A DNA stretch of 64,000 nucleotides from Labia minor (taxonomy: Eukaryota; Arthropoda; Insecta; Dermaptera; Spongiphoridae): positions 45,675,962 to 45,739,961 of the forward strand of contig OY720349.1 in NCBI GenBank assembly GCA_963082975.1, read 5' to 3'. Shown piece by piece: positions 2,371 to 58,639 of this stretch (positions within the stretch are counted from its first letter, which is position 1; each line of letters opens with the position of its first letter). The notes under the pieces were generated by a model, which searched no databases, was not told where the DNA came from, and saw only the letters and a program-made list of their open reading frames with translations. The position numbers and the translations under genes are program-made.

Positions 2371-2950
2371 ATTTTTACTCTCACCAGAGATAGTATTGCG
2401 ATCACGAAAATTTTTGATGTCGTGATTTTGATGTTTTTTATACGTTTTGAAGGTCCCTGAGCCATTTTCACTAAGGATTAGAAAAATTTATGTGTGTGTG
2501 TATGTAGACAAGATTATGCAAAAACGGTTTGAGCAAGAATAATGAAATTTGCTACGCGGGCATTATTCAAAATTCGTAGTTTTCTATCAACTTTTGAGAA
2601 ATGTAGCTCATTCGACATTACCTGCCACGTTTTGATTTTTTTTCCTCTAAAGTGACCGTAAAAATAAAGATATATGTTTGATAGTATTTCACATGATTAA
2701 AAATTGTATAAAACTGCTATATATAGAATTTCAGCTTGATTGAATCGCTGAAGAGATACCGGAATTAATTTTTTACTATGACTGCAAATCACGCGCCAGC
2801 ACGTGACGTGGTGCCATCAACAAAAAGCCGAACACGCGCTGGTTTAATAAATATTATTCATTAATTTGAAATTATAATTTAATTTAAATAAAATATATGT
2901 TAATTAATCCAATTCAAATTTGCGAGATAGTCGAGTGGAGACTCTCCAGA
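2371..2950 (+). repeat. R1-family repeat, copy 1 (Helentron-like, non-autonomous)
   Basis: About 580 bp, matching copies at 28.3, 37.9, 47.5 and 58.1 kb. The 5' end is ATTTTTACTCTC with AGAGATAGTATTGCGATCACG. The body contains a short GT/ATGT tract, CAAAAACGGTTTGAGC, GTTTTCTATCAACTTTTG and CACGTGACGTGGTGCC. The 3' end is TGCGAGATAGTCGAG followed by TGGAGactCTCCA, a short terminal stem-loop. No long reading frame. Confidence 0.8.
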
Positions 2951-3108
2951 TTTTTTCATTTTTTTTTTTCATAATTAATTCTCAAAAATTCAATATATAA
3001 ATTATAAATAATATTAAAAAAATTGTCTTCAATCTTATTAAAAATTATTAAATAAATTTAATTTAATTTTGAAAATTTTAAAAAATTTTCTGAAATGGTG
3101 TTTATACA

Positions 3109-3330
3109 CTAGTACCGGGACCCCGAGCCTCGGCTCGGTACTTAAGTTAAAAAAAATGATTCATTATTATTGGATTTGGCTGGTAATATTAATACCTGGG
3201 ACACCGAGCTCTCGCTCTACCCTTTAAAAAATATTGATACACAATTCTTTAATTATTTATTACAATTATTAAATGTTACACATTTGCATCAATCTGATTA
3301 AAATTAATGAACTTGTGCTCCTCAATAATA
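3109..3330 (+). repeat. R3-family repeat, copy 1
   Basis: It begins GTACCGGGACCCCGAGCC and contains the hairpin GAGCCtcGGCTC. It shares TTTGGCTGGTAATATTAATACCTGG and ACCGAGCTCTCGCTC with 17.57 kb and 52.1 kb. Related shorter pieces (TGTTGCATCATTGCATCAATCTGATTAAAATGAATGG-like) recur at 4125-4165. Function and class unknown; there is no coding capacity. Confidence 0.65.
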
Positions 3331-4377
3331 CATAAATATATAATATATAGGTACATATATTTTTTTTCTATAGTGTTTTTTTGAAAAACTGTTTAGCGCC
3401 CCAAGTGGTTATAAAACAAACTAAAGACAAAAAAACGTGCTTTGCAGCTTTTCGGAATTAAAAAAGCAAAATTGGCAGTCGTGGGACTGGCCGACAGAAG
3501 TGAAAACTTCTGCGTAAGAAATTTTAAAACAGACGAAATTCGCGCTATTTCACGAGAAAGATGAATTTCATATGCATGTATATATATATAACTTATATAT
3601 TATTTTAAACATATATTTTAAACAAATTTGTAACTTATATTTATATATATATAAATACACAACTTTGTTTAAAATATTGCAATACGAACTGTTTTATAAT
3701 TCTTATCTCTAACATAAAATATATATTTATTATGTGAAGTTCATTTCGTATAATTTTGATTATATATGTATATATGAAATGAACTTTACATAATAAATAT
3801 ATATTTATATGTTAGAGATAATTTATAAAACAGTTCTAATGACAATTCAAATTTCGCGCTCTGTTATAAGAAATTTGAAAGCAGATGGTTTCATGGTGTT
3901 GGTCACGATCACGCGAGTTCTATACTTTTTCCCCATCCCGCAAAAGTGCTCAACGCCGCTAAAGAAGTTTTCACTTCAAAAATTATTTAATATTTGGAAA
4001 TATATCTGACTTATAGAAAAAATGAATATTAATTAAAGAAAGAAATAGTTTTTAAAATATCCTGAATAATATGTAACAATTTTCAAGATAGAAATTTATT
4101 ACAATATTACAATTATTAACTGTTGCATCATTGCATCAATCTGATTAAAATGAATGGAACTTCGGGTACTCAATAATAATAAATAAAATAATATTAATAA
4201 ATATATTGAATAATATTTTATTGAAAAAATATTAAAACTTATAAAACTATCTAAAACTTTATTAATAAAAGAACAATGAATAAATAAATATAGAATAGTA
4301 ATTTATTAAAAAGTAAACAATAGATAAAAAGAAAAAAAAATAACAAAATCATTATTTTCATTTTTAAATAACGATTC
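3331..4377. repeat. Long imperfect hairpin (3684-3750 / 3773-3837) in AT-rich DNA
   Basis: The left arm starts ACGAACTGTTTTATAA and runs about 67 bp. The right arm is its near-perfect reverse complement, ending TTATAAAACAGTTCT, with a spacer of about 22 bp. An outer inverted match (GAAGTGAAAACTTCT near 3500 versus AGAAGTTTTCACTTC near 3965) suggests a larger foldback or MITE of about 480 bp. The surrounding sequence has no supported gene, and the short open frame overlapping the right arm has no recognisable family. Confidence 0.55.
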
Positions 4378-4445
4378 ACCCGGCGAGTTTCGAACCGACG
4401 AAATCCACTCGTTAAAACATCAGTCCAACCGCTGGACTATATGTA
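4378..4445 (-). repeat. tRNA-like sequence (SINE head or tRNA pseudogene)
   Basis: On the minus strand TAGTCCAGCGGTTGGA resembles a tRNA D-arm/box A, and GGTTCGAAACTCGCC, about 35 bp downstream, resembles a T-arm/box B. The anticodon region (GTTTTAACGAG) does not form a clean five-pair stem, so it is not called as a working tRNA. Confidence 0.45.
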
Positions 4446-4499
4446 TTTAGATAAAAAATTGTCATTTTTTTACTGTCTTAGCAGGCAGTATTAAAAATT

Positions 4500-4705
4500 T
4501 TGACGTTTTCCATATATAATTTTCAATTAAGAAATTAATAATGAAGCTGTATGTTTCAAGAGATATCATCAATAAAACTTAATTTTTCTTTATAAATACT
4601 ATATCTAGTGTGAATTTGAAAAAAATCGTTAGAGCGGTTTTTGAGAACCAATATATATAGATAAATACATATATACAATTTTAGCTAGCATAATAAGATA
4701 AGATA
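4500..4705 (+). repeat. R5-family repeat, copy 1
   Basis: It shares TTTCTTTATAAATACTAT, GGTGTGAATTT, AAAAAAATCG and ACAATTTTAGCTAGCATAATAAG with 53.22-53.37 kb (same strand) and 50.57-50.8 kb (opposite strand). It ends in a short AAGATAAGATA tract. Non-coding. Confidence 0.6.
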
Positions 4706-4855
4706 TTTGCGACTAATTATTTATTAATTTGATTTTAACTTAAAGAAAGTATACTGTTTTACTTATTGAATTTTTGAAAATTAAATTTAAAAAATAAATA
4801 AATAAAAAAGAATAATAAAATATTTCTAAATAATTGTTAATGTCTGTAATATTTG

Positions 4856-5110
4856 TCACAGGTGAGTCAACGAGTTTGCTTGCTGAAAATCCGATTGACG
4901 ATCACTTGTAAGTGAAGTTTTTCTGTTGTGAGGTGGGAGAGGCTTTAATAGCCACACAGTGGACCCCGAATGGTAGCCGTTTCGTTTATCCAGTTGATAT
5001 GATGACATGTATCGTTTCGCGAGTTCCCAGGGGGATGGGACGCCCACCCCCTCCCCTTCAGGCTGCCCGGTTCAACTCTCAGCGGTTTAAAAAAATAACA
5101 ACATACATCA
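4856..5110. other. Higher-GC unique island (candidate conserved non-coding block)
   Basis: Complex, non-repetitive sequence in a much more AT-rich background. It contains an inverted pair of NK2-type half sites, CACTTGTAAGTG (near 4905-4916), and a TGATATGATGACATG segment. Overlapping open frames on both strands are short and unrecognised, as expected for a GC-rich patch rather than an exon. Confidence 0.3.
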
Positions 5111-6715
5111 ATTGACCCTCCCCTTCCTCACGCAACTAGTTAGTCTTTTCAATTGTCCAAATATAAAATTATTAACACGTCTCTCTGCATTTTGTTGTCC
5201 TCGGTGACCAAAATAAAAAAATAACCATTTTTTTTTTTGAATATTTGTTTCAATTGAATTAAATAAAAAAAATGCACACAATGCATTTAAAAAAAGCAGC
5301 GGCTTTTAGATTAGATTTCGTTTTTTTTAATAACGGCAAATAAAAAACAATAACTGACAATCTCTGATTGCATTGAATTATGCAATAGGATTGTGCGTTT
5401 TTCTGGTGATTAGATTTTTAAAATTCCAATTGGATCTAAAATTATTTCACTCTTTTTCTACAATAGAGGTCTATAATATAATAGCTCTTTACTACTCGAG
5501 TTATTTATTGAAAAATACTAACAAAAGCAAGGAAATATATTTAATATTTAATAACCTATTTCATGAAACAATAAATATATATATATAGATATATTATTAT
5601 TATATATATATATATAGAGAGAGAGAGAGATATTATATATATCTATATATAAGATCACGCAGAGCTTTAAAGAGAAATGGTTCATTATTGAATTTCCCTA
5701 GGCCCGAACTCGAGTCTTCAGTGTGGTAGACTGTCGTGCTAACTACTAAAATGCATTCTTCTATTAATTAAAATTAATTATTAATTATTGAAATGCTTAA
5801 AATAATTAATAATAAAGAAAATTAATAGAAAATTATGGTTATATTTTTTGTTGATATTTTTTTTCATATATTCTTAAAAATAAAATATGTTTCATTAAAT
5901 GATGAATAAAAACTTTTCTTTAAATTTTCCGTCTTTTTAACAGTTTTACTAAAAATAATTTTTAAATTTTAATCAGGTATAAATAATTAATTTCCTTTAG
6001 AATATATATATGTAAAATAAAATAAATTAAAATTTTCAAAATATTGATTTCCTAAAAATTACTAATTTATTATTTTTACTATAAATATTTTTTTATATGA
6101 ACTTTCGTATTTAGTAAATTTATTTTTATATTAAATTTTTGATAATGTTTGAAACCTCAAGGCCAATTACTCCTATCTAGATCTCAGAGCAATGTTAAGA
6201 CTAAATTTAAAATTTGTATTTTATTTACAATTGATTATTCGATTTGGTTTAAATTGTTTCCAACAGACTCAAAATAAAATACAAAATAGGTTACAATGAG
6301 TTAACTTGTAATTGATTAATATTTTATTGAATTTTTGATTATGAAAATTTACATAAACTAATTTTATATGAGTGTATAATTCCTATTCTCTCATTCAAAT
6401 AGAATAAAAAATATTCAAAGAGGTCATGTTTTCAAAATCTCTTAACCAATCTGAAACCCAACATTATTTTGAATATAATCCCTGAATAAATTGTTTCTAT
6501 ATGAAATTCAAGGTAAGTAAATTCAGTATCATATTTTAATTATTAATATTTTAGTTACTTTGAAACGGTTAAAACTGTGGCAAACAAAACAATATTATAT
6601 ATATATATCTGACACACTAGAGACCTAAAAACATATATACCCCATTTGGACTAAATTCATTATTCCTCAACGTTTTAAATTCCCTCAACGATATATTTCA
6701 TTTTTGTGTTTAAAA
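5111..6715. other. AT-rich spacer with microsatellite and one tRNA-like patch
   Basis: Contains an (AT)n-(GA)n microsatellite at about 5574-5655. At 5688-5752 the minus strand has TAGTAGTTAGCACG and GAGTTCGGGCC, which are box A- and box B-like, possibly an old SINE head. The remainder is low-complexity A/T with no gene seen. Confidence 0.35.
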
Positions 6716-6719
6716 TATA

Positions 6720-7100
6720 AAAAAAAATCTGCTTCTGTCCCTTTCTATGAACGAGATCGACCTCAGGAGAGAAGGCAGCGTGGGTGGGGGCCTCGATGTG
6801 GACTCAATCACAAAAAAGCATATTAAAAAAAACTCTATAACCAGAATTGGGATTTTCTATGTAAAAGGCTGATTTGAAAGGCGGGGGTTTAATTGATATT
6901 TGGAGCCAATACATTTGTCCTCTTGGGGGATAAATTGGCGAAGAGAGTTTCCTCCCAAAGGATTTTAACTTCGCTCTCTCCGTCTCTTTTTAACTCAATT
7001 AAAGGCCTATTGCTTTTAAACACTGTAAAAGAGTATAAAGGCTTGTGTGAGAGGGAAGGGGAATGTATTCATCAAATCTATCATTCTTTAGTGAAATAAA
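6720..7100. other. Higher-GC unique island
   Basis: A mixed-composition block (around GAACGAGATCGACCTCAGG and TGGGGGCCTCGATGTGG) that is not repeated elsewhere in the window. A 68-codon open frame from 6893 has no recognisable domain, so I do not call a gene. Possible regulatory DNA. Confidence 0.25.
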
Positions 7101-7699
7101 AATCAAATAGTACTAGAAAAATCACAAGGAACAACCTGCGAATTATATTTTCTAATTCCTTTAATTATTTAAAGTAAATTATCAGGTGTTATTATATTTA
7201 TAGTATATTTTTATTAAAATGGTAAATATTTAAAGATTTAACTAATAGTGATAGCTTCTGAACGCGGATTCCGCTGCTATCCAATATAGCAGGTGTGGCC
7301 AAACTTTTAGCTTTTAGGGGCTACTTTTTGAATAAAATATAGTCTGCTGTCGACTATGGATATGGGCAAATAATTTTAAAATTTTAGAAGATAATTAAAG
7401 AAGTCATTATATCGCCGATTTAAATTGCAAACCTTCACTTTTGGTCAAAAATTACATTTTCACACTATTAGAAAGAGAAAAACACCTTACATTGGCTATG
7501 AAATACCGCTATTATGCACCTATTTAATTGAAATCACGTGCCAAGCAAAAAATTTATGCGTTTTAAGAAAGTTGTGCAAAATATGCTGAATATGAGTTAG
7601 CAGGATTGCAATCTAAGTCGACGATATATTTTTTATTTTATGAATTCTAACAATATTTATTAAAATTTTAAAAAATACAATGTTAAGAACAAAACAAAT

Positions 7700-7985
7700 T
7701 TTAAGCATACAATTTTTATTTGGATGAAACCTGGCATTGCATAAGAGCAGCAAGTTTCTCAAAATTTGGCTCATATGAAGTTAAAACAATTCTTAAGCAT
7801 GACTAAATGTAGATCCGTTATTTGCGATCGCTGTTTTGTTTTAATCGCATTCATATAAGAAAATGTGGATTCACATAAATATGTGGAGCCAAAAAAGGAA
7901 ATGAAACGAGCTACCATTGTCTAAATATTTGGATATTTATCTTTCCTTATTAGTCTCCCAAATCTATTTATTATGTAATAAATAA
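7700..7985 (-). pseudogene. hAT transposase C-terminal (dimerisation) remnant
   Basis: On the minus strand the frame reads YPNI, then FFGSTYLCESTFSYMNAIK, TKQRSQITDLHL, and later AMPGFIQIK. This matches the C-terminal hAT dimerisation region of the type found in the GTF2I-repeat/ZBED-like transposase group, where the FGSTYLCESxFS core and a K-x-K/R-R-S motif are typical. Two stop codons follow LKNCFNFI, so it is dead. No BED finger or RNase-H-like catalytic part was seen upstream. Confidence 0.75.
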
Positions 7986-8615: not shown

Positions 8616-8757
8616 CATTGACGCCTTTCCATCCATTCCCTTACTCTTACTCTCCCCCCCCCTCCCCTGAACATTCAAAAAATCAAATTTATTTGGATGA
8701 AGGAGAATACCTAGCATAGCTTCATTAAAAAGAAAAAAAAATTGAAATCTTGTCTCT

Positions 8758-23640: not shown

Positions 23641-24232
23641 GTTGAATAAATTAATTTTCCAACAACATTATACATATATATTTATATAAATTATAAAAAA
23701 AAATATTTTTAAAATTTGAATTAAAATGAATAAATTATATTATCTTGGTTTTTATTTTTAGTTTAATAACTCATTTATTAATTACTATATTTTAAGTAAA
23801 AAATTTCCGACAATGAATATAAAATTAATAATTTGTAAACTACCACTTCCGCTTTTTTATATACACCAAAAGTTGATAAATTCATGCTACTGATGCATTA
23901 AGTAAACATTACAAATTTTATAAAATCCGTTTAGCTGTTCAAACTGTACATACACAATGGGCAGACGGACGGACACACAACAGACAGATGGACAGACATC
24001 GTGCTAAAAATACTTTTCTGTTAACAAAATGCATGATTCGTGGAGATATGTAAAAGTCTCCACATGTGTAATTTGATGTGAAAACAATATCTTCTCTTCC
24101 TATCATCGGTCGGTAATACTACCACTTCCGGTTTCCCGATATACACCAAAAGTTGATGAATTTATCCTACTGATGCATTAAGTAAATAAACCAAATTTTG
24201 TCAAAATTCGTTGAGCCGTTCAAGTTATAGAC
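23641..24232 (-). repeat. R2-family repeat, copy C, with partial second unit
   Basis: It contains TAGTTTAATAACTC, the TTTCCGACAATGAATATAAAATTAAT segment (split by differences), the GGAC tandem (23954-23995) and GTCGGTCGG-like CATCGGTCGGTAA at about 24105. A second start, CTACCACTTCCGGTTTCC, follows at once, giving a partial tandem. Confidence 0.65.
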
Positions 24233-25608
24233 GTCATTGTTATTGTGCCGTGTAGGATGTTTTTTGGAATATAAACCAGGAACGAAATGTGGAGGTTCAA
24301 AAATTAGGTAGGTAAGTTACCACATGCGTAAATATATTATAAATAAAATATAAAAAAAATTACGAGGCTATCTCTTATAGTTTAATTTTCATGATTTTTT
24401 TTCGAAGGGAGAACAAATTTGCTAGGATATCTGAGTGACCATTAAAATAATGCAGCCATCTTGGCCAAGCGAAAGCAATTTAAATAAGACCGGCAAAAAT
24501 GACCTAAAAATCGAAAATAAAATTTTAATTAAACCTTGAATATTATCATTTACAAATACCCAATAATTAAGCTTGTGGCGCATATAATAATATTAAATTC
24601 TTTACCTACTGCTTATGTTCATATGGGCCCACGTTTTTTTGTTGTGCATATGTAAAGGATAATATTCAAAGTTTAATTAATATTTTATTTTCTATTTTTT
24701 ACGGCATTTTTTTATTAAAAAACGTATATAATATATTATAAACTTTTTTTTTATTAATTAATTTATTAAACACTGATACAATGTACAGCTTATGATTTTA
24801 TTTAGAAAAGAATAAATAATCAAGTATAATAAGAATAATTTAAAAATTTATATAAAAATATATATATGTAATCATAAAGATAGACGAATATTTTTTAGAT
24901 TCTTCAGACAATCAAACTTGAAGATATGCAAAAAATTTTAAATTTTGAGCAATTTGCAGACAAAATCTTTTTATATGTGCCACTCAGAAGCCAAACCGAT
25001 TAACTCCAAGTTTAAAATTTTGCTACTAATGTAATGTAATGTAATCTACAACATAAGAAGTGAATAATGAATTTGATAATCTTAATATTGTAATGGAATA
25101 TACATTTTTCTGTAATCAATAAACCTGACTTTCCTACAAGCTGTAAACTTTGGGCTTCATTTTCTCAGTTTCTTTAAATGTGGAGTTAGTCGCTTTGACT
25201 TCTGAATGGCACATATGTTTATTGATAGGTATAAAAAATAATTTTATTTTACTATAACACACACACATTTTAAATCACCTCTAACATCAGAATTTTAAAG
25301 ATATATTGCTCTATTGTTAAATAACCTATTGAAGTTTTTCCTGGTTTTCATTGTTTGTTGTGTAAAGTCTTAATGGTATTGTGATTATTTACCTAACACA
25401 GTTTGAGGTGAACAATAGATCATGTGCATGTTATAAATATGTCACATTTGAAAGGATCTTTTCATTACAATTTCTACCTGGATACTATATCAAATATAGT
25501 ACCATTTCACACAAAAAAAAAAATAAACAAAAACAAATAAAGTTGCAATTGTGTTTTAGGAATAGTCGTTTATTGTTTTTGATCAGATTTTAAAGTCTAA
25601 AAAACAAA
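24233..25608. other. AT-rich spacer with an R6 repeat piece
   Basis: 24890-24975 is the inverse of 52828-52890 (TTGAAGATATGCAAAAA, GCAATTTGCAGA). The remainder is A/T-rich with no supported gene; the 70-codon frame at 25381 is unrecognised. Confidence 0.35.
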
Positions 25609-27092: not shown

Positions 27093-27342
27093 GAGCTGTG
27101 GCCACACACAGGTACAGAACCGACCAACAATTTGAAATAAATTAATTTTTAAAAAATATTATATATATATAAAGCATAAAAAAAAAATTTAAAACTTAAA
27201 TTAAAATGATTAAATTTTATTATCTTGAAAGACGGACGAACAAACATGATGCTAAAAATACTTTTTTTCTTTAACAAAATGCATGTTTCGTGGAGATATG
27301 TAAAATAAGTACTTTCCCTTTCTATCGCCGATCGGTAAAAAT
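27093..27342 (-). repeat. R2-family repeat, copy D (shortened)
   Basis: It starts with CTGTGGCCACACACAGG, an elaborated form of the terminal hairpin, then ACAGAACCGACC. It lacks the middle and ends CATGTTTCGTGGAGATATG ... CGATCGGTAAAAAT. Confidence 0.7.
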
Positions 27343-27370: not shown

Positions 27371-27735
27371 TTGGAATCATTTGTCCGTCCGTCTATTGTG
27401 TGTCCGTATAGACGTTTATAGATTGAACGGCTCAACGAATTTTGATAAAATTTGGTAAATTTACTTAATGCATCAATAGCAAGAATTCATAAACTTTTGA
27501 TGTATATTCGGAAACCAGAAGTGGGGGTTTACAAAATATTAATTTTATATTCATTGTCGGAAATTGTTGGCTTTAAAATCTAGTAGTAATTAAACTAAAA
27601 ATAAAAACCAAGATAATATAATTTAGTCAATTTTTTTTTTTTTTTTGATACTTTATATAAATATAAATATATAATGTTGTTTGAAAATTAATTTATTTCA
27701 AATCGTCGGTGGGTTCTGTGACTGGCCACTACTCA
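27371..27735 (+). repeat. R2-family repeat, copy E (inverted to D)
   Basis: Contains GTCCGTCCGTCTATTG, GAACGGCTCAACG, ATTCGGAAACCAGAAGTG and the terminal AAATCGTCGGTGGGTTCTGTGACTGGCCAC (broken by single differences). D and E lie head to head about 30 bp apart. Confidence 0.7.
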
Positions 27736-28286
27736 TTTTTTATTAATATATTATATCAAAACGTACAATTAAAAATTTTTTGTTGATATTGATTGATAAA
27801 AGAAAAATCTTATTGAAATAAAAAATAAAGGCTCTAAGTTAACATAATAAACAAAAAATGAAATAAAAAGTGAAGTAAGTAAAGAGAAATTATTAAATTT
27901 TAATTTGTATTCATTAGTAATAAGATAAAAAAATTTATTTTTATTATTACTAAACGATATATTAACTTATGTGATTATTATTATCTAAAACATCAAAGAT
28001 TAATTAAAAATAATTGTTTAATACTGAAAAGAAATGTAAAAGAAAAAATAGGTTATATGGTATATTAGGAGTGATGTGATATTGAAATTTATTAAGCGGG
28101 CATATAAATTGTGGATCGATTTCATTGAATTAGGTTAAATAGAACAGAAAAACATAATCCACAATGATTAGTAATTGAATAAAAAGATAAATCTATTCAT
28201 TAAGTTTTCAAATTTTTTTAAATCATATACATATATGAATATATAATACCTATATAAATATTCTAGTAAGATCTGAATTGTCTTTG
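27736..28286. other. AT-rich spacer
   Basis: Nothing recognised. Confidence 0.4.
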
Positions 28287-28873
28287 TTACTATAACGCCT
28301 GAGATAGTTTACGAAAATTTACGATTTCGAGATTTTGATGTTTTTATACGTTTTGAAGGTTCCTGAGACATTTTCACTAAGGTTGAGAAAAATGTCTGTG
28401 TGTGTGTGTATGTGTGTATGTATGCATGTATGTATGTATGTGTGTATGTAGACAAGATTACGCAAAAACGGTTTGAGCTAGAATAATGATATTTGGTACA
28501 TGGGCATTATTCAAAATTTGTAGTTTTCTATCAGCTTTTGAGAAATGTAGCTCAACCGGAAGAGGGTCATTTCCTACCAAGTTTTGATTTTATTTTCTCT
28601 AAAGTGACCGTAAAAATAAAGATATATGTTTGATAGTTTTTCACATGATTAAAAATTGTATAAAACTGCTATATATAGAAAATCAGCTTGATTGAATTGC
28701 TGAAAGTACCGGAATTGATTTTTTAACACGACTGCAAATAACGCGTCAGCACGTGATGTGGTGCCATCAACAAAGAGCCAAACACGCACTGGTTTAATAA
28801 TTATGATTTATTAATTTTAATTTAAATATAATACATGTTAATTAATCCAATTCAAATTGCGAGATAGTCGAGC
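28287..28873 (+). repeat. R1-family repeat, copy 2
   Basis: Same layout as copy 1 with a longer simple-repeat core: (GT)n and (ATGT)n at about 28398-28450. It ends GCGAGATAGTCGAG at 28873, where the terminal stem-loop found in other copies is missing. Confidence 0.75.
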
Positions 28874-29944
28874 TTATTTTTTAAGTAAAATATTTTTTTC
28901 TTTAGTTGAATTATTTAAAATTTAAATAAATATTTTTTTATATTTAAGCTTCCCTGTGAATATGCATCGTATGTTGCATATAGGATTGGAAAATTTGAAT
29001 GTTTGAAAAATTAAGTTTAAAAAAAAAATCAGATTCCTTTTCCATGGGAAAATATTTAAAGAGTTGAGTTTAAAAAGAAATGAAAGAACATTTCGACGAT
29101 TGTTTGACATTCTATTTTATTCAAGTGTAAAAGATACCTGTCATGATTCGTTACGGTTCATTGAAAGCGAAATTTCTTTGAAATAATATTTTTGTCACAA
29201 ATTGATGACTGATTATTTGAAAAAAAAATGGCACATTTCACTCATTCTGATTAAATCATTAATAACTTTCATTTAGAAATAGAATAATAGAAAAAATAGA
29301 AATAATATAAGAAGAAAAAAAATAAATAAAAAAACTACAGAACAATATCTTCCAACGACATGTTGAAGTAGCAGTAGGAAGTCTTTTCGAAGTGATGGAT
29401 ATATGGGGCGAGGAGTCCTTATTCAGAGCAGACAAAAGATATGATTTGTGGGAAAGGCTTTTGTGTGTTGGCATTCATTCATTCATCGAAAATTGCAAAA
29501 CTAAAATTTGTATTTATTTAAAGATGTAAAAGAAAAACAATCTGGAATTACTTTTAATTTTAATCAAATGATATGTTTTTAATAATTTATATATGGATTA
29601 ATTTGAATTAACTTAAATATATTTATACTATATAGATGATGAAATCCCTTTGACGATCTCTACAACCCCTAGACCCCACTAGTTATCATTTTTAACATAT
29701 TTTTATATATATTACTAAATGTATTATATATTACCATGTAACTTTTTTCCAATTTTTTTTAATATAATTTTTTTTCTTTCTCGTTTTTAATAAGTTTTAT
29801 ATTAAAAAATGATTTTACCAATTGTTATTTTTTTTTATTATTTATATATTGCACAATTTTAGTGTTAGTAAACAACACTGGCAGGTGTAGCCACAATCCT
29901 TACTCATTTGAACCAGGTATTAAAAAGATTTTGAATAAAATGGG
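28874..29944. other. AT-rich spacer
   Basis: A short mixed-composition stretch at 29340-29480 carries an unrecognised 71-codon minus frame. Otherwise low-complexity A/T. Confidence 0.35.
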
Positions 29945-30419
29945 CTGTGGCCAGGCACAGAACCGACCGAAGATTTTAAAGAAATTAATTTTCAAACAAA
30001 ATTATATATTTATATTTATATAAAGTATCAAAAAAAAAAAATATTTTTAAATCTTGACTAAATTATATTATCTTGGTTTTTATTTTTAGTTTAATCACTC
30101 AATTATTAATTACTACTATATTTTAAGCGAAAAATTTCCGACAATGAATATAAAATTAATATTTTGTAAACTACCACTTCTGGTTTCCGGATATACACCA
30201 AAAGTTTATGAATTCTTGCTATTGATGCATTAAGTAAATATACAAAATTTTATCAAAACCCGTTGAGCCGTTCAAGCTATACACAAGGACACACACAACG
30301 GACAGATGGACAGACATCATGCTAAAAATACTTTTTTCTATTAACAAAATGCATGATTCGTGGAGATATGTAAAAATTACCACATGTGAAATACCTTACC
30401 TTCGTCAGTTGGTAAAAAT
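29945..30419 (-). repeat. R2-family repeat, copy F (near full length, no insert)
   Basis: This copy best shows the R2 plan without the mosaic insert: the hairpin CTGTGgccaggCACAG at 29945-29960, then ACCGACCGA. The body contains TTTCCGACAATGAATAT and CATGATTCGTGGAGATATG, and the end is CGTCAGTTGGTAAAAAT. Confidence 0.8.
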
Positions 30420-30444
30420 ACTCAAAATATCACAGACAATAAAT

Positions 30445-32780: not shown

Positions 32781-33852
32781 AAAATTAATAAATAGACAAA
32801 TAAAATTTAAAAAAAATTCAAATAGATTTTGATTTTCCTATTTTCAATGAAGTATTTTGAAATAATTATTTGAACTTGCTAGAATATAATACGAGAAAAT
32901 CCAATTATTTATTAAAATTGTTTTTTTTTTAGTTGTTGACAGGTTTCCATCTTGTATGTTGATTTTTATTATTGTTTGTGTAATCGCAATCTCAACCCTT
33001 GACAATCGTATTTAAAATTCATATTAGAATATTTGAATTGGGAAATCGGTGGCAATATCTCGTTCTATGGAAATGTAGCTAATCTTGACCCCCATTGGGA
33101 GGGCTTCGAGGGCTTGATTCGACTCCGGGAGGGGTATGGAGTCGGGAGAGGACAGGGGCCGCAAGGGGACCTCGCTACTTCGTTGTTTATGGATTTATTC
33201 ATCGTATGCAGAGTTATGCAATGCACGGATAGTTTTATTATATAACTCACCAGTCCCCACCTCTACTCTCAAACTCTCACTGGCAACTTTATATTACCAT
33301 TATTATGAATATATAGGAGAAATAGTAGACGAGGCTTGTGCTCAGGGTGGAGGATACTCAACGATTTTCTCACTCATCCTCCTCAACTTCTTACATCTCG
33401 GATTTCTATGGGCTTTGATGAGACCTAGGTAAACTCTAGAGATCACCCCCCCCTCTCTCTCTCTCTCTTTCTCTTTCTCTCTCAGTCTGTTTTTCTCTCA
33501 CTTTGTAGCAAAATATTTGGCTTCGGAGTAAAAGTTTAATTATATCACATAAACTTTATATAGAGTTTACTTAAATAATATAATCTATATTTCTATACTT
33601 ATACTTATATGATGTTCCATTAGGTATACTGGACGCACAACAATCTCTTGAACCTCCATTCTCTTAATTCTATTAAATATTTATGACTTATATTAAAAAC
33701 TTTTATACTTATTATTGTGTAGAAATTAAATAATATAAAATTTAATAAATTTTAAACTTCTTATAATTTTATAACATTTAAATACATAAAATTTTACATT
33801 TTTAAATGTTAATATATATAATTTTATTACTTTTCATTAAATTGTATCTTTT
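32781..33852. other. Unique higher-GC island (33030-33430), (CT)n, AT spacer
   Basis: 33030-33430 is the longest complex block in this part: a G-rich half (GGGAGGGGTATGGAGTCGGG) and a half with homeodomain/POU/C/EBP-like words (TTTATGGATTTATTC, TTATGCAATGC). Three overlapping short frames on both strands have no recognisable domain. (CT)n lies at about 33455-33482. Candidate cis-regulatory block. Confidence 0.35.
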
Positions 33853-34712
33853 TTTACCTACCGACGATAGGACGGGAAGTTATTGTTTTCACATGTGGAG
33901 ATTTTTACATATCTCCACGAATCATGCATTTTGTTAAAAGAAAAGAGTATTTTTAGCATGATGTCTGTCCATCTGTCCGCGAAGCCTTTACTGGGGGTCC
34001 TCAAAGCCAGGTACAGGTGCACGAGAAAATGATTAGTCAGTTAAAACTTTATAAATAAATATTAATATAAAAGGAGCGATGGCATGGCTTTGTGAGGAAA
34101 CAGAGATCAAATACCCAAATTCAACGAAAGAGGCAAGAAAACTATTGCTACCTATTCCATCTTCATATTTAGCTGAATTTTCTTTCTTCAATATTATAAT
34201 TTCTAATAAAATGTGTTCATACAATATGCAAAAAAATCGTTATTCACCAATCACTGTTAGAAATATTCATCATATATCCTTGTTCTTATGAGATCGTAAG
34301 CCAGAAATTAACTAATAAAATGACGTAAAGTACATAAAGTTGGTATGCGGTCCGTCAAAAAAAATTTTTTCAAGTGGGGGTTCGCGGAGTACATAAGTTT
34401 AAGAACCTCTGAGTTAATGCATTAGTAGCATGAATTCATCAACTTTTGGTGTATATTCAGAAACCGGAAATGCTAGTTTACAATGTATTAATTTTATATT
34501 CATTGTCGGAAATTTTTCAATTAAAATATAATAGTAATAAATAATTGAATAATTAAACTAAAAATAAAAACCAAGATAATATAATTTAGTCATTTTAAGT
34601 TTTAAATAAGTTTTTTTTATACTATATACTATATTTTATACTATATATATATGTATATAATGTTTGCAAATTAATTTATTTCAAATTGTCGGTCGGTTTT
34701 GCGCCTGGCCAT
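33853..34712 (+). repeat. R2-family repeat, copy G, interrupted
   Basis: The 5' part, TTTTTACCTACCGACGATAG to CATCTGTCC, and the 3' part, TTAATGCATTAGTAGCATG to TTGTCGGTCGGTTTTGCGCC, are separated by a hAT-like insertion. Confidence 0.75.
33990..34412 (+). mobile_element. hAT-like non-autonomous element inside R2 copy G
   Basis: The left end ACTGGGGGTCCTCAAAG and right end AAGTTTAAGAACCTCTG resemble inverted hAT termini of the CAGxGGTTCTCAAAC type. Between them, the plus frame reads YPNSTKEA, LLPIPSSYLAEFSF, and so on, a decayed C-terminal hAT dimerisation segment (L-P-F-x-S-x-Y-L-x-E-x-x-F-S). It dates after the R2 copy it splits. Confidence 0.55.
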
Positions 34713-35998
34713 TTTTCTTTATTTATTCTATTAAATTCAATGAAACATACAATGAAAATTAAAATTATAAATAAAAAATTTTCTTTTAATTTTCAAGGAA
34801 ATTGTCCCTTTTACTTAAGATTGCATTTTTGTAATTTTTTGATTTTTTTTTTTTAAATTAATATAAATCTTTGGTTCAAGGCAATTTAAATATTTTTTGG
34901 AGTTCAATCATAATTATTGATGAAATACAGAAATATAAAATTTTAAATCAATCTGAAAAAAAAATTTTAAGAAAATAATTACTTAAGAGTAAATATTACA
35001 CTAAATTGATTTATTAAGTATGGAAATTTTAGAAATGAAGGATAGTAGAAGAGACAGAGACCTGGAGAGAGGGAGGAGGGGAAATTTAAGGATATTTTAT
35101 TGGTATGAGGCGTATGGAACATGTTGGATTAAATTAATTAATCTCCTAACCAAAGGGAATAGTCGACCATATGGAGTGACCAGTAAACAAGGAAAGAGAT
35201 TGTTTCATTATCAACAACACAACAATATCAAGCATTAATATTATCCCTGGATGGGTCAATATTAATACTGGAATCGTGTTGAAGATCCAATAGGAGAGCC
35301 GGAGTTTGGGATTAGTGAGATGTCTCTATATGTGTATTTATCCCAATCAAATGCTCCTCCCACGGGATATGTTGATGTTGTTCGTGGTCGGGCTGCCTCC
35401 GTCCATATCAAAGTTTTCATTTGCGATTTCACCATTTCAACTTGATTCACTGTCCATTTGAAAAAGAAAGCATAATAAAAATCGGAATTGAATATACACA
35501 GATCTTTATTTTAAAAATTTATGAATACCTACACCTAAAAGGAATAAGCTATATTCAAAATTATAAATTAAATAATAATATGAATATTAATTTATAATTT
35601 TTATATTTCCAAAAATGTTATTGTAATAAAAGCTATTAAGAATAAGTAATAAAAAAAGCATATTTTACATAAATTGCCTCGTCTATAGGGCATATCATAG
35701 ATTATTAAAGAATCAATGTTTTATACTATTATTATGAAATGAGTCAGAATAAATGAAAATAAATAAGAAAATTTTGTGTGATATGATAAGGATTTTAGAT
35801 GATTAATAAGAAAAACTTCAATTAAACATAAAGTGAAAGGCATTAGTAAACATTGTATATTTGAAATAATTAGAAAAATATTTTTTTTTTCAAAATAAAA
35901 AAAAAATCATATCGTACCTCAAATGACAACCATTAGAGAGTATGAAACACTACCAAGGTCCTAAATTTAAAATTGTTATTTAATAATTAATAAGTTGA
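34713..35998. other. AT spacer with unique mixed block 35030-35460
   Basis: 35030-35460 is unique and of mixed composition (AGAGACCTGGAGAGAGGG; GAGCCGGAGTTTGGG; GGTCGGGCTGCCTCCG) with ATTAATTAATC-type homeodomain words. Short frames on both strands are unrecognised. The rest is A/T-rich. Candidate non-coding element. Confidence 0.3.
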
Positions 35999-36643
35999 CC
36001 TGTGGCCAGGTCCGAACCGACCGACTGTTTGAAATAAATTAATTTCCAGCTACAGAAACAATTTCAAATAATTTTAATATATCTATTAATGTAATAAAAA
36101 CAGATATGAATATATCATAAATAATAAATATAAACATTTTTAATTTTATTTTATTTATAATATATATGCAAGACCAGGCTGTGACGTCATGAATGGCTGG
36201 ATGACGTCATATAATTTTAAATCAAGAAAAAACTAATAAATATGATTTTCCCGAGGATAAAACCAATACAAAGTGCATGATTCGTGGTGATATATAAAAA
36301 AATCTCCTTTGGTGTGAAAATAACCCTTTCCTTCCTATCGTCGATCGCTAATACTACCACTTCCGGTTTCCGGAATTGCACCAAAAGTTGATCAATTCAT
36401 CCCACTGATGCATTAAGTAAATATACCAAATTTCATCAAAATCGGTTAAGCCGTTCAGGCTGTACACATCTATACGGACGGACGGACAGACGGACGGACA
36501 GACGGACGGACGGACAGACATCATGCTAAAAATACTTTTTTCTGTTTAGAAAATGTATGATTCGTGGAGATATGTAAAAATCTCCACATGTGAAATTTGG
36601 TGTGAAAACAATACCTCCCTTACTATCGTCGGTCGGTAAAAAT
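35999..36643 (-). repeat. R2-family repeat, copy B (full length, with mosaic insert)
   Basis: It starts CTGTGGCCAGG then GAACCGACCGACTG and ends ATCGTCGGTCGGTAAAAAT. It shares with copy A the insert GTGACGTCATGAATGG / GGATGACGTCAT and the GGAC tandem, here longer (36475-36517). Near-identity with copy A points to recent spread or duplication. Confidence 0.8.
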
Positions 36644-37720: not shown

Positions 37721-37915
37721 GGTATATAGTGAATTCGTTAGTGTTATCAGTATGTTTTTATTCATTGAGGAATAACAAGTAAAATATATCAAATGAATAT
37801 CAAGGGGAAAATTTTAATTTTTTTATTTAAATATTATATTACTATTAAACCAAGTGAATAATTAATTATTAAATGCTGAAAAAATAGGATCTTATATATT
37901 ACATGTATTTAAAAT
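36644..37915. other. AT-rich spacer with (AT)n
   Basis: (AT)n at about 37693-37720. The small mixed block at 37165-37265 holds an unrecognised minus frame. No gene. Confidence 0.35.
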
Positions 37916-38496
37916 TAGCTGGAGTGTCTCCACTAGACTATCTCGCAATTTGAATTGGATTAAATAACATATATTATATTTAAATTAAATTATTTAAATT
38001 ATAAATATAAATTAATAAATAATATTTATTGAACCAGCGCATGTTTGGCTCGTTTTGATGGCATCACGTCACGTGTTGGCTCGTGAGATTTGCAGTGTTA
38101 AAAAATTAATTCTGGTACTTTCAATCCAGCTGAAATTCTATATATAGCAGTTTTATACAATTATTAATCCTGTGAAAAATTATCAAACATATATCTTTAT
38201 TTTTACGGTCACTTTAGAAGAAAAAAAATCAAAACGTTGTAGGTAATGACCCTCTTCCGGTTGAGCTACATTTCTCAAAAGTTGATAGAAAACTATGAAT
38301 TTTGAATAATGCCCATGTACCAAATTTCATCATTCTAGCTCAAACCGTTTTTGCGTAATCTTGGTTACATACATACACACACACAGACATTTTTCTCAAC
38401 CTTAGTGAAAATGATTCAGGAACCTTCAAATCATCAAAATCTCAACATCGAAAATTTTCGTGATCGCAATACTATCTCTTACGAGATAGTAAAAAT
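37916..38496 (-). repeat. R1-family repeat, copy 3
   Basis: Starts with the stem-loop TGGAGtgtCTCCA then GACTATCTCGC. The body is as in copy 1. Ends ATCGCAATACTATCTC, ACGAGATAGTAAAAAT. Nearly full length. Confidence 0.8.
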
Positions 38497-46468: not shown

Positions 46469-47498
46469 ACGTGAAGCTTTACAAGGTTAAATAATACAAA
46501 TAATACATTGTTTCAACGAGAGTTGTCAGTCCAATATTTAAATCCAATATTATTATATATTAGTTTATGTTCATTTGAAATCTTAACACGTTTAATTTTA
46601 GTTACCTATATAGTACTAATGTATCGGTTTAAATATATATTTACATTTAAAATTAATTGTAAAATGGTCAATTAGTGGTTGATTAATTTTTAAAGTTAAG
46701 TACGTTGTTTGTTTGTGTTTTTATTCAGCTCGTTAAGTGGTTTTAAGCGTCTAAAAGGAACTCTGTGCGTAATAAAGGTTCTATTGACGCGTAAACACTT
46801 AACTAAATTCTTTTTTTAAGTCTAGTGAATGTTTTGGGTCGTATAAAATCATGGCAGCAGAATGGAATGGGGTGCGAAGTTGGAACGATTTGATGGATTG
46901 AGGGAGGTAAGAAGTAGTCTTGGGATTTGAGCAAATGCTCAACAGGATCCTCCACTCGAGAGCGGCTCTTCTGATTACCCCCACCATTCCTCCCGCCTGA
47001 ACCCACAACAACCCATCCTCTTGCTGTTGCCTTTTGCTTTTGTTCCTCGCCAAATACGACGATGCCACTCCTCGGGGCATTTCAACGAATATCAGTGCCA
47101 GTTGATAATAATAATAATAATAATAATAATAAGAGTAACGACTTGTCGTCTGGACACCATCAGTTCACTTGAATAGGCGAAAATCCCAGAATGGACCCTC
47201 ATCTTAATATGTACCATCCTCTCGGGTTGATAAAATTAGAACTGACATTGGACAACTTCTTTAGGCAACTCAACAAAACAAAGGATTATAGTTGGCGAGT
47301 TAAATAATACAATATTTATAATTATTTATATAGAATCTATATATTTTAAATTTTAGAATTATAAAACTTAAAGAATATTGAAAACCCATAATCGATTTTC
47401 ATTAACCTAATATCAGTGTTTACAAAGTAAAAATCGTCATACTTAAAACTTTTTTATTTATTTCTTTATTTTAAATACTAGATTTAATTTTAAAAAAA
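46469..47498. other. Spacer with unique mixed block 46800-47230
   Basis: The block contains a minus-strand open frame of 93 codons and an overlapping one of 67, neither with a recognisable domain, plus an (AAT)n tract at 47107-47131. It is not repeated elsewhere here. It may be a conserved non-coding element or part of an unknown exon; I cannot tell. Confidence 0.3.
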
Positions 47499-47786
47499 TC
47501 TGGAGTGTCTCCACTCGACTATCTCGCAAATTTGAATTAGATTAATTAACATATATATTATATTTCAATTAAATTATAAATTTTAAAAATAATAAATAAT
47601 ATTTATTAAACATGCGCGTGTTTGGCTCTTTGTTGATGGCACCACGTCACGTGCTGGCGCGTGATTGGCAGTCAATCAAGCTGAAATTCTATATATAGCA
47701 GTTTTATACAATTTTGAATCATGTTAAAAACGTATAAAAACATCAAAATCTCGACATTGTAAATTTTCTGGCGAGATAGTAAAAAT
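47499..47786 (-). repeat. R1-family repeat, copy 4 (short)
   Basis: Both ends are present (TGGAGTGTCTCCACTCGACTATC-type start, GGCGAGATAGTAAAAAT end), but about half the body is missing. This shows that the ends are a unit even when the interior is lost. Confidence 0.8.
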
Positions 47787-52770: not shown

Positions 52771-53375
52771 ATACCTGTTTTCGTAAATTTTATTTATTTA
52801 TATGTATATATAGATAAAAAAGTTTTTCTCTGCACATTGCAGTGAATTTAAAATTTTTGCATATCTTCGAGTTTCATGACCTCTAGAATCCAAGAGTGAC
52901 TTTAGAATTTTTCATGACTGTCTGTCTGGAAATTTTGACGATATAGAGTCAACCTATTAAGATGAAATTACATTCCTCTATTTTTTCGATATATATTCAA
53001 TATCCGCAGAAATTAAGTCTTTCTGTCGGGAAATATAGACTAAAAATTGTACAGATTATTTACGGAGGCGCTGAATGACGAAATTGAATCTTCTAAACGT
53101 TGTGAAACAATTTCAAATAATTTTAAGATATCTATCAATGCAATAAAAAACAGATATGGATATAACATAAATATTTTTAATTTTATTTTATTTATAATAT
53201 AAGAATAGATATATATCTCACAGAGATGTGATCAATAAAACTCGATTTCTCTTTATAACTATTATCTCTGGTGTGAATTTCAAAAAAATCGATCAAGCGT
53301 TGTCTGAGAAACTATTTACATATATATATATATACAATTTTAGCTAGCATAATAAGAATAGATAATTATGCTTAT
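52771..53375. repeat. R6 piece, then R2-insert and R5 copy 3
   Basis: 52828-52890 is the inverse of 24.9 kb (R6). 53105-53200 repeats AACAATTTCAAATAATTTTA and AAAAACAGATATGGATATA from R2 copies A/B. 53220-53370 is R5 in + orientation. The patchwork order shows that these families exchange segments. Confidence 0.6.
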
Positions 53376-56290: not shown

Positions 56291-56299
56291 TGCAAAAGT

Positions 56300-56814
56300 G
56301 ATAAAAGAATAAAATCCAGGAGCAATATGACGGTTCCGGTTTGCCGGGCGATTGAGCCTCCACTTTTAGTCGTACGGCGGCGGTCGCGTCTAGAACGGTA
56401 ACCTCTTTCTGCACCCCTCGTAACTGTTTCCCTCCGGGGAAATAAAACAAAAAATGATCCCCCACCCTGGTCGCGTGTCCCCGCCCAGAATGACGTCAGT
56501 GCACTTGCGATTGGCCGTTGGGCTCGTCGGCGATTGGCCTAGGGGGCGTGCCGGGAGGCGGGTTCGCCAAGGGGCGGAGCCGAGAGGTCCCCAACGCGGT
56601 CGTCGGCCAGTTGCGCTCAGTTGGCCTCCAGCTGGGGCAATCGCAACATTCGTGACTCTACTGGGGCCTCTTGCTCTTCTCCATCCATGTGCTTTGCTTA
56701 GGACGATGACTCTCGCGTATTCTCTTCCGAGCTCTTTGGCAGCCAGTTTCTAGGGACCCTTGATTGGACCCTGAGGGACCCCCCTCCCGTCCCCTTCTCA
56801 ACCCCTCAACTTGA
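56300..56814 (+). promoter_or_regulatory. CpG-rich promoter/5' region of collier (knot)
   Basis: An abrupt change to GC-rich, CpG-rich DNA. Motifs in order: a perfect CRE TGACGTCA (56491-56498), two reversed CCAAT boxes GCGATTGGCC (about 56508 and 56531), GC-box-like GGGGGCGTG (56542) and GGGGCGGAGC (56571), and an arthropod initiator-like TCAGTT (56617-56622). This is a plausible core promoter about 270 bp upstream of the coding exon. The start site is inferred from motifs only. No TATA box at the expected position was seen. Confidence 0.6.
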
Positions 56815-57116
56815 AGACACCGCTGCACCACGGCTTCCCCGTGGCCCGGTTTGCCCCTGCCACCGGGGCCCGACTTGGACCCGGTGACGGCATGGGGCCG
56901 CAAGTTATACGGCCCGGCAGGGCCTACCGCCGCAGCCGCTGCAGCTCGAGGCGGCCCAGGCTCGCTTATGTTTGGCCTGCATCCTGGACAGGAACATGCA
57001 GCCGCTGCAGCGGCCGCCGCAGCCGCGCATCATCATCAGGTCCGAGGACCACTCAAAGAAGAACCGCTCGGCGCTCCAAGATCCTGGATGCAACCCAGCC
57101 TCGTCGATCCGAGCAG
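56815..57116 (+). CDS. kn: collier/knot (COE/EBF transcription factor), coding exon 1
   Basis: N-terminal exon of the COE (Collier/Olf/EBF) zinc-knuckle/IPT transcription factor, a nuclear DNA-binding regulator of neuronal and muscle identity. From 56893 it reads WGRKLYG, SLMFGL, an Ala run then HHH, LKEEPLG and WMQPSLVDPS. WGRKLY, LMFGL, LKEEPLG and WMQP match, in order, the N-terminus I recall for Drosophila Knot; KEEPLG and WMQ also occur in vertebrate EBFs. It ends AG|GTAAGT (57117), a consensus donor in phase 2, near where EBF genes break before GVGLARAHFEKQ. The DNA-binding, IPT and helix-loop-helix domains lie beyond the window. Odd point: the frame is open from 56815 but has no in-frame ATG, so the true start may be an upstream exon, a non-AUG codon, or obscured by a base error. 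Gene identity is fairly sure; the start is not. Confidence 0.85.
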
Positions 57117-58113
57117 GTAAGTTCATTCATTCGCTCAGGTGCATGAAACAGCCAAGTTTGACAGCCACCTGCCTGCCATGCGCCTGCCCGCTTACCCCCC
57201 ACCCCACCCCACCCACCCCCATCACTACCGTTCCTGTCCTTCGCGCACATTTCATCCTCATTTCACCGAGAGACGATGCATGCAGGAGGCTACAGCACAA
57301 ACACTTTTCGTTCAAACCAAACAAAGTATGAGCGAAGGAAAATTTCTCTAAATTTTTCACGGATTCGCTAAATAAATTTTATCCATTTTTGGGTTAAAAA
57401 ACAAAATCAAACAAAATACTTTTTATTTAATAAATATAATACGAAAATACGTGATAAATCATGGCATGATTATCTAATTTAAATGAGATTATTAAAATAA
57501 AACAAAGAAAAATTGGATAATTTTTTATTTCAAAAGTTTAGGTGATTTAGGATGAAACTAAATAAATGAATTAATAAATCATGGTTTTAAATTTAAACAT
57601 TTTTAATTTCATTGAAATTATTTATTTATTGATAATATCCAAATATTTAGCTTATGGCACCATTAAGATAACATACAATAATTTTTATTAAATTTATAAC
57701 TTATTTTAAAGGTGAATGAACAAATTCTTAATAGAATGCATGTTTAAATGAGTTATCTTTAAAAAAGATCTCTTCGGGTTGTTTTTATGCGTAAAAAACT
57801 TTAAATAATGAAAAATGCCAATAAATAAATAAAAATTGATAATTCAAGTTATTACATGTTATTATTTTAAGAAAATTATTTTTACCTTTTTCAATTTTAT
57901 AAATAAATTTCTTATTTAAATTCCAAATAATCAGAAAATATAAAATGTTTAAATATAATTCTCTTTATTTAATTCTACCTATTTCGATTGTGATTATTGT
58001 AAAATAAATAATAAATTCCATCCATATCTATCTTCTTTATTTTAAACAAAATCTTTCAGAAAAATTAATTAAAATATCACTTTTAAGGGGATTGCAGTGT
58101 TTTTAATAAAATT
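57117..58113 (+). other. Start of collier/knot intron 1
   Basis: Begins GTAAGTTC. The first 150 bp remain GC-rich (a CCCCACCCCACCCC tract near 57200), then the sequence drops to A/T-rich. Several open frames in 57117-57360 are intron shadows. No second exon was found before 64000. Confidence 0.6.
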
Positions 58114-58639
58114 AGCTGGAGTGTCTCCACTCGACTATCTCGCAAATTTGTATTGGATTAATTAACATATATTATATTTAAATTAAGTTTAATTAAAATT
58201 AAATTATAAATTATAAAATTAATAAATAATATTTATTAAACCAGCGTGTGTTTGGCTCTTTAAGGATGGCACGTGATTTGCAGTACGTGTTAAAAAATTA
58301 ATTCTGGTACTTTCAGCGATTCAATCAAGCTGAAATTCTAGATATAGCAGTTTTATACAATTATTAATCATGTGAAAAATTATCAAACATATATCTTTAT
58401 TTTTACGGTCACTTTAGAGGAAAAAAAATCAAAACGTTGTAGGTAATGACCCTCTTCCGGTTGAGCTACATTTCTCAAAAGTTGTTAAAAAACTACGAAT
58501 TTTGAATAATGCTCGTGTACCAAATTTCATGATTCTAGCCGAACCGTGAGTGTAGTGAAAATGACTCAGGGACCTTCAAAACGTATAAAAACATCAAAAT
58601 CTCGATATCGAAAATTTTCATGAGCGAGATAGTAAAAAT
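58114..58639 (-). repeat. R1-family repeat, copy 5 (in collier intron 1)
   Basis: Starts AGCTGGAGTGTCTCCACTCG, then ACTATCTCGC, and ends GAGCGAGATAGTAAAAAT. Body as in copy 3, with the GT core lost. Confidence 0.8.

Follow-up and report, generated by a model that had tools for sequence, protein, structure and literature searches.

Two repeat families in Labia minor share the terminal plan of non-autonomous Helentrons

Introduction

Short non-autonomous transposons of the HINE/DINE-1 type are the closest described counterparts of two repeat families, R1 and R2, that we analysed in a 64,000-nucleotide stretch of DNA from the dermapteran Labia minor (GenBank assembly GCA_963082975.1, contig OY720349.1; hereafter the window). 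According to the sections of Thomas et al. (2014; PMC4067079) drawn on here, the HINEs and Helentron-Mo described from the mite Metaseiulus occidentalis have subterminal inverted repeats (subTIRs) a few nucleotides inside the 5′ end and some tens of nucleotides before the 3′ end, a palindrome at the 3′ end, in some copies also simple repeats, and T-rich targets without duplication, and a related Rep/Helicase/endonuclease element has the same ends and an RGSPHxH motif. These features recur in R1 and R2, that of the partner element in R1. The R1 subTIR differs in being 10 bp long and not palindromic, compared with 12–15 bp and palindromic in the mite, and an inverted repeat of the DINE-1 type stands next to the 5′ subTIR of R1, whereas the mite HINEs, as portrayed in those sections, lack it. 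For Drosophila DINE-1, the portions of PMC2374699 used here likewise describe subTIRs, with a partial inverted repeat beside the 5′ one (matched in R1), a GTCY-type microsatellite (matched in R2), a 5′ block with a conserved core, a stem-loop a few nucleotides after the 3′ subTIR and T-rich insertion sites. The subTIR and body sequences are different, and two subTIR types coexist here, whereas the same portions give one type in 11 of 12 Drosophila species.

We conclude, with a probability of about 0.92, that R1 is a family of non-autonomous Helentrons (HINE/DINE-1 type) and that R2, which has its ancestry in common with R1, is another. The class of the finding, a HINE/Helentron pair, is established knowledge, and R1/R2 are a new family of that class; neither was named in general full-text searches, none of which was aimed at these exact sequences. 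The pair resides in one assembly with chromosome-sized contigs and comprises an autonomous element and more than 16,000 exact passenger ends. Its candidate autonomous loci can serve dating and testing, and the two diverged subTIR types, the several 3′ tail types and the many copies would open the rules of Helentron end recognition to comparison.

A common terminal plan

The window (G000:C6:45675962-45739961 in our numbering; A+T content about 72%) belongs to an assembly of 604 Mb in 71 contigs. Self-comparison of the window recovered five copies of R1, at 2.4, 28.3, 37.9, 47.5 and 58.1 kb, and seven of R2, at 0, 23.6, 27.1, 27.4, 29.9, 33.9 and 36.0 kb; all these positions had been given in an original prediction, made by a model from the letters alone. 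Copies are named by position in kb, and the strand given for each is the orientation that places the TTTTTAC end first.

2372..2954, + strand: R1 copy 2.4; T-run, decayed subTIR, inverted repeat and GT core; on its 3′ side the subTIR, then hairpin TGGAGactCTCCA, then the T tail
28300..28880, + strand: R1 copy 28.3; decayed 5′ T-run, no 3′ hairpin, longest GT/ATGT core
37911..38495, − strand: R1 copy 37.9; whole plan, including the 5′ inverted repeat and the 3′ CTAATTTT tail
47493..47785, − strand: R1 copy 47.5; internal deletion (core gone), both ends intact
58108..58638, − strand: R1 copy 58.1; both ends intact, no core, 3′ CTAATTTT tail; query for the genome search
1..587, − strand: R2-long copy 0; 5′ end TTTTTACCGACCGACGAT, second internal 5′ end at 313; its 3′ end lies past the window edge
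23642..24235, − strand: R2 copy 23.6; two partial units in tandem with a junction at ~24114, no 3′ subTIR and hairpin
27105..27341, − strand: R2 copy 27.1; internal deletion, both ends present, hairpin CTGTGtgtggcCACAG
27380..27745, + strand: R2 copy 27.4; no 5′ end at its meeting point with copy 27.1
29937..30423, − strand: R2-short copy 29.9; both ends, hairpin CTGTGcctggcCACAG; query for the genome search
33847..33990, + strand: 5′ piece of R2 copy 33.9; TTTTTACCTACCGACGAT, then an unrelated insert
34405..34722, + strand: 3′ piece of R2 copy 33.9, beyond the insert; decayed hairpin
36005..36642, − strand: R2-long copy 36.0; both ends, exact subTIRs, hairpin GACCTggccacAGGTC, GGAC/GTCC core, second internal 5′ end at 36349

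Read from the TTTTTAC end, R1 has the layout TTTTT-ACTATCTCGC ... GCGAGATAGT-CGAG-TGGAGacaCTCCA-G-tail and R2 the layout TTTTT-ACCGACCGACGAT ... ATCGTCGGTCGGT-TCTGTGcctggcCACAG-tail. The R2-long hairpin reads GACCTggccacAGGTC in place of TCTGTGcctggcCACAG, so the stem is conserved though its letters differ. With at most one mismatch, ACTATCTCGC occurs 8 times in the window against 1.15 expected, a number reached in none of 100 shuffles; for ACCGACCGACGAT, with up to two mismatches allowed, 13 occurrences compare with 0.24 expected (0/100 shuffles). The plan as a whole was tested as a 10-bp inverted repeat (at most one mismatch) near both ends with a hairpin 3′ of it that has at least three G/C per arm. 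Among 580-bp pieces this combination was found in 0/1000 shuffled and 1/1000 real random ones, and it was absent from all 13 pieces that represent five further repeat families in the window. Of the five R1 copies three pass the test, and of the seven R2 copies none does, partly through clipping of several R2 3′ ends. When six R2 copies were taken with longer 3′ ends, a perfect stem was present in 27.1, 29.9 and 36.0 and not in 27.4, 33.9 and 23.6; the 10-bp subTIR pair was exact only in 36.0, had one mismatch in 33.9 and was not recovered in the other four. In R2-long the subTIR is exact over 10 bp in window copy 36.0 and in all three fetched copies. Both families show the subTIRs near both ends that characterize HINE/DINE-1 elements, at 10 bp in R1 and with decay in most other window copies of R2. 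A 3′ hairpin outside the subTIR, a further such feature, has a perfect 5-bp stem in 35 of 42 R1 3′ ends caught by pattern (two of the 42 may not be R1) and is present in 3/6 window copies of R2 and 3/3 fetched R2-long copies. The DINE-1-type inverted repeat beside the R1 5′ subTIR (ACTATCTCG..GAGATAGT) is seen in 13 of 19 intact 5′ ends from the window and fetched loci.

The shared end plan of R1 and R2 is beyond chance, with several copies having lost an end. The original prediction had ascribed this plan to both families, and T-run, subTIR, 3′ hairpin and T-rich tail do exceed chance, but not every copy has them all. A start of TTTTTAC followed by a subterminal repeat agrees with the excess over shuffles, although the 5′ end of 28.3 is decayed and 27.4 has none; a simple-repeat core is present as GT/ATGT in R1 28.3 and as GGAC in R2 36.0, but GT is absent from 47.5 and 58.1. 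The inverse of the subterminal repeat near the 3′ end is exact in R2 36.0 but lost from R2 23.6, and the final stem-loop, found at most R1 ends and in R2 27.1, 29.9 and 36.0, is absent from R1 28.3 and R2 23.6 and decayed in 33.9. Pairs of window R1 copies are 77–90% identical over aligned columns, i.e. decayed.

The same prediction held R1 and R2 to be unrelated, which is contradicted by a colinear alignment of their 5′ ~245 bp (blastn E 7e-7) in the order T-run, subTIR, short conserved stretch, microsatellite and core. In Smith-Waterman comparisons of four R1/R2 pairs, three beat all 300 dinucleotide shuffles, in one case with a margin of one point, and the score of the fourth was reached in 5 of 300. 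The common core, around AACGG..TGATGAAATTTGGTA..ATCAACTTTTG..ACCGGAAG, is DINE-1-like, and the colinear part agrees with the DINE-1 5′ block of a microsatellite and a ~90-bp core as outlined in the portions of PMC2374699 at hand. The 5′ halves of R1 and R2 are colinear relatives.

Several copies carry rearrangements. The second 5′ ends inside R2, at 313, 24114 and 36349, have the same joining point, at which GGTAGTATT abuts A[CG]CGA, and represent a partial head-to-tail dimer common to several copies. An insert of 414 bp (33991-34404) breaks R2 copy 33.9; it is probably another repeat, since a similar frame (ILKKENSAKYEDG.GSNSFLA) occurs in locus L080, at about 1665-1850. A stretch of the R2-long body, 36055-36164, matches 53104-53201 (83–85% over ~110 bp) and 50710-50781, and is possibly captured host or other repeat sequence. 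Elsewhere in the genome, R2 is followed directly by R1 in L013 (700-1330, minus strand) and R1 directly by R1 in L026; such neighbours reflect mutual insertion at T-rich 3′ ends or tandem formation.

An autonomous element with R1 ends

The genome contains 104 matches to Helitron_like_N. The original prediction had proposed looking for an autonomous element with Rep/helicase coding between the same ends, and for R1 this search yielded a Rep/Pif1/endonuclease-like frame between R1 ends. The frame belongs to element A, 12.2 kb long and located on contig C1 (positions are those of the reverse complement of G000:C1:47860500-47875400). On the left of A, the R1 5′ end stands at 619 and R1-like sequence reaches up to 1367; a stop-free frame of 2,181 aa spans 4965-11507; on its right, the R1 3′ terminus occupies 12752-12789. 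As only these ~38 bp match R1, the right end is not an R1 insertion. A is the one element seen with both R1 ends, and it codes no DDE transposase, which the prediction had named as a finding that would speak against a Helentron. A truncated R2-long copy at 2503-3077, between the left end and the frame, is taken to be a nested insertion. Part of the leader of A, at about 1380-1496 (query positions 80-196 of G000:C1:47873789-47874099), is a common, separate dispersed repeat with other genome matches at 86–96%; the best 40 of 3585 candidates were scored.

Three close relatives of A have protein identities, by piece, of 90–97%, 95–98% and 78–90%. Locus L076 (C1, 44.69 Mb, 3 Mb from A) matches A at 99.2% identity over the 249 bp that end with CTAATTTTA, where the similarity stops; on the upstream side of this copy (L078) a piece of the leader is kept and the 5′ end is not. 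The alignment of a locus on C60 with A begins exactly at TTTTTAC, with differing flanks, and the two loci have the R1-to-leader junction in common at 97–98%; LTR-retrotransposon-like (long terminal repeat) frames stand directly upstream of the C60 Rep pieces. In the C10 relative an R1 5′ end lies upstream of the frame. R1 shares ends with an autonomous Helentron, as HINEs do: both on A, the 5′ end on C60 and C10, and the 3′ end on L076. Each R1-type boundary is fixed by two loci, the 5′ one by A and C60 and the 3′ one by A and L076, C10 being weaker.

In a Pfam run on 1,869 of its 2,181 residues, the A protein matched Helitron_like_N (E 1.7e-23), PIF1 (E 1.7e-31) and DUF6570 (E 1.1e-11). When the C-terminal 470 residues, the region of an AP-type endonuclease in autonomous Helentrons, were run alone, the matches to Exo_endo_phos_2 (PF14529, E 3e-4) and to Peptidase_C48 (E 0.0032) stayed under the gathering scores; a PDB search with the C-terminal part returned SENP8 (E 0.015). 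H, D, Q and DCG follow one another in this part in what we take to be the order of the Ulp1 active site. It is possible that a Ulp1-like domain is fused to the A transposase, unlike mite Helentron-Mo as far as the sections of PMC4067079 go. The Rep motif of A, ERVEFQMRGSPHEH, is of the RGSPHxH type; S at this position indicates Helentrons and L (RGLPHxH) Helitrons (PMC4067079, section 7). With such a Rep and a Pif1 helicase, A has the Rep and helicase features of an autonomous Helentron; some Helentrons additionally carry an RPA-like protein in an ORF of its own. Of 32 Rep loci scanned, the motif was legible in 28, with S in six (L060-L063, L071, L072) and L in 22.

Termini and target sites

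The exact 27-bp R1 3′ end occurs 16,503 times in the 604 Mb and its reversed control not at all; the 28-bp R2-short 3′ end occurs 750 times (control 0). First-look candidates in the genome numbered 7077 for R1 and 6321 for R2, and the best 40 of each list were scored; the 30 R1 loci fetched are the best matches to one window copy and hence a biased sample. After CTCCAG, the tails of 39 distinct R1 3′ ends (fetched loci and window) read ATTT in 12, CTAA in 10, CTTA in 9, CTTT in 3 and otherwise in 5. Among these ends, 18 of the 19 with CTWA continue with TT, as do 13,876 of 14,420 CTWA ends genome-wide; the TT may belong to the element or to the target. On the 5′ side, the base preceding TTTTTAC in 19 ends is A in nine, T in six and C in four; an impression by eye that A nearly always stands there (8/9 in the window) was dropped on this larger set.

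Empty sites were sought for 37 candidate copies, whose ends were paired by pattern and which include some alternative pairings of one copy; the flanks were joined and compared with the collected sequences, and eight of the copies listed were read. L021 is R1 inside R1: the empty form ACAATTTTTAATCATG, present in several other R1 copies, becomes ACAA[TTTTTAC...CTCCAGCTAA]TTAATCATG, with two T at most duplicated. In L016, compared with window 52520-52426 (77% alike), empty ACTATTTTTTTTTAATTTATG becomes ACTA[TTTTTAC...CTTA]TTTAAATGTATG; a second, shorter paralogue (window 52759-52676) aligns uncleanly at the site. L033 is R2-long within R2-short (70–80% alike), its site again in a T-run. The paralogue of L019 is too diverged for reading, and comparison of joined flanks gave no empty site for L013, L015 and L010 and A+T-rich matches only for L027. 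The C60 copy, on its 5′ side only, starts within a T-run of E1, an RGLPHxH Helitron of the same genome. The predicted insertion between T and T without target duplication is upheld in that none of the three readable, paralogous empty sites (L021, L016, L033) has a fixed-length duplication and all three insertions lie inside T-runs, the T-rich target of HINE/DINE-1 elements; since the element's own T-runs merge with those of the target, the sites place the insertion within the run and not at one exact point between T and T.

Assessment of the Helentron model

In anatomy, target and partner, R1 agrees with the HINEs. The better copies of R2 show the HINE anatomy as well, and R2 is of the same ancestry as R1; no partner of R2 was found in the stretches read. 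The Helentron/HINE assignment of the original prediction is thereby borne out for R1 by partner, target and anatomy, and for R2 only by its anatomy, by 3′ flanks rich in T and by the homology of its 5′ part to R1.

A number of observations weigh against this assignment. Both R1 ends are seen on A only. At C60 about 22 kb separate the R1 5′ part from the Rep pieces, which have the same orientation, and the sequence between was partly read; C10 has no leader in common with A between its R1-like part and the frame, nor was an R1 3′ end seen in the 2.2 kb fetched, so that the R1 5′ end there could have been inserted separately. C10 and C60 support the left end incompletely. Over the 60 bp ending in CTCCAG, A is 74–77% identical to four window R1 copies (46–49 identities in 61–64 columns), below the 80% of the subfamily rule in the cited sections of Thomas et al. 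(PMC4067079), and by that rule R1 is not of the same subfamily as A. The subTIR of A recurs without change in those R1 copies that are less decayed; it measures 10 bp, compared with 11–15 bp and a family rule of at least 11 bp of identical subTIR in the same sections (Thomas 2014, PMC4067079). No R2 ends flank Rep frames in the stretches read of L072, L075, L080 and a further Rep element, E2, most of the 104 Rep matches having been viewed to 1.5 kb at most. One R1 copy (L009) has its 5′ side at the E1 T-run and a 3′ flank that does not continue E1; the mixed bases before TTTTTAC leave no rule of insertion between T and T visible on the 5′ side; and tandem R1-R1, considered as a signature of rolling-circle replication, is limited to one case by sequence (L026), with the exact junction found once genome-wide.

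Under the Helentron model, R1 and R2 would be short derivatives keeping only the ends needed by the autonomous element: the 5′ T-run and subTIR, in R1 also the small inverted repeat, and the 3′ subTIR, hairpin and T-rich tail. The Rep/helicase/endonuclease protein of the autonomous Helentron would bind these ends, its HUH Rep would nick, and its Pif1 helicase would peel off one strand by rolling-circle replication; the 3′ hairpin may act as the terminator of strand transfer, and the released strand would be joined into T-runs without target duplication. We infer these reaction steps, and the roles of hairpin and subTIR in transposition, from Helentrons as a family. Element A most likely moves R1, presumably by means of its protein, and the A protein or a sister protein would move R2. 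It is rather doubtful that one Helentron lineage, with a single Rep + Pif1 + endonuclease-like + Ulp1-like protein, moves both R1 and R2 and has, in its CTWA-before-TT ends, termini intermediate between Helitron (CTRR) and Helentron.

Among alternative explanations, it is improbable that the R1 ends around the Rep/endonuclease frame of A are independent R1 insertions flanking it by chance. In favour of this, R1 is very common in the genome and has copies in the neighbourhood of E1 that are not part of it; A has a long R1-like stretch (619-1367), and its leader is not shared by the C10 relative. At the 3′ end of A, however, the match to R1 covers only ~38 bp, and some 200 bp of non-R1 sequence upstream are common to L076, with the same stop base, and A and C60 share their R1-to-leader junction at 97–98%, both from TTTTTAC.

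We consider it very improbable that R1 and R2 are canonical Helitrons, with 5′ TC, 3′ CTRR and insertion between A and T. Such an origin would accommodate CTAA or CTTA right after the hairpin in 19 of 39 R1 3′ ends (CTAA fits CTRR), and RGLPHxH Helitrons with near-identical 1652-aa frames exist in the genome. Yet the 5′ end is TTTTTAC and not TC, subTIRs stand at both ends, insertions lie inside T-runs, the RGLPHxH element E1 has different ends, and the protein between the R1 ends is RGSPHxH and endonuclease-like. Least credible of all is that R1 and R2 are miniature inverted-repeat transposable elements (MITEs), derived by shortening from a DDE DNA transposon whose inverted repeats are terminal and whose target site duplication has a fixed length: they do have inverted repeats near both ends without a long open reading frame, and DINE-1 has been described as a MITE in the portions of PMC2374699 used here, but the repeats are subterminal rather than terminal, with a T-run outside one and a hairpin and tail outside the other, conserved between copies, the fixed duplication is absent from the empty sites, and the element with R1 ends codes Rep/Pif1 and not DDE.

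Other elements of the genome and the window

E1 resembles R1 and A in a 3′ hairpin near its end and, as in A, a Rep domain; its boundaries, 1009-10632, are not R1 ends, and the post-helicase C-terminal region of A is not apparent in it. As a partner of R1 it was rejected, since E1 copies share these other boundaries (about E1 1009-10632), and two R1 copies downstream of E1 are taken to be separate insertions. Seven E1-type RGLPHxH loci (L041-L047) have the same Pfam score and frames of 1537-1652 aa, and their near equality suggests that E1 was recently active. L049 is a close E1 relative of 1655 aa, and E1 loci are spread over G000 C9, C10, C1, C2, C5 and C6. The ends of E2 were not found in the stretches read, nor were those of a third Rep class of RGSPHxH type (L063/L067/L068, L060-L062 and L072), whose frames measure 1785 aa in L063 and 1854 aa, with one stop, at the L062 locus. 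Before its Rep this class has an apparent extra region that we take, by recognition, to be protease-like.

An Rfam search of the window gave no matches, and a pattern scan for the repeats in genome contigs gave none. Of two pattern scans of viral contigs, one was without matches and the other returned four contigs (L001-L004), which were set aside as chance; we take L001, L003 and L004 to be ribonucleotide reductase genes and L002 another coding-like stretch. Within the window, 42072-46468 holds an LTR-retrotransposon-like element whose two repeats of 905 bp are 99.9% identical and each contain a 99-bp tandem; its single 658-aa frame resembles gag and protease only, and a target duplication is not evident. 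At 51047-51526 (− strand) lies a 159-aa frame that we take, by recognition, to be the remnant of a mariner-like transposase.

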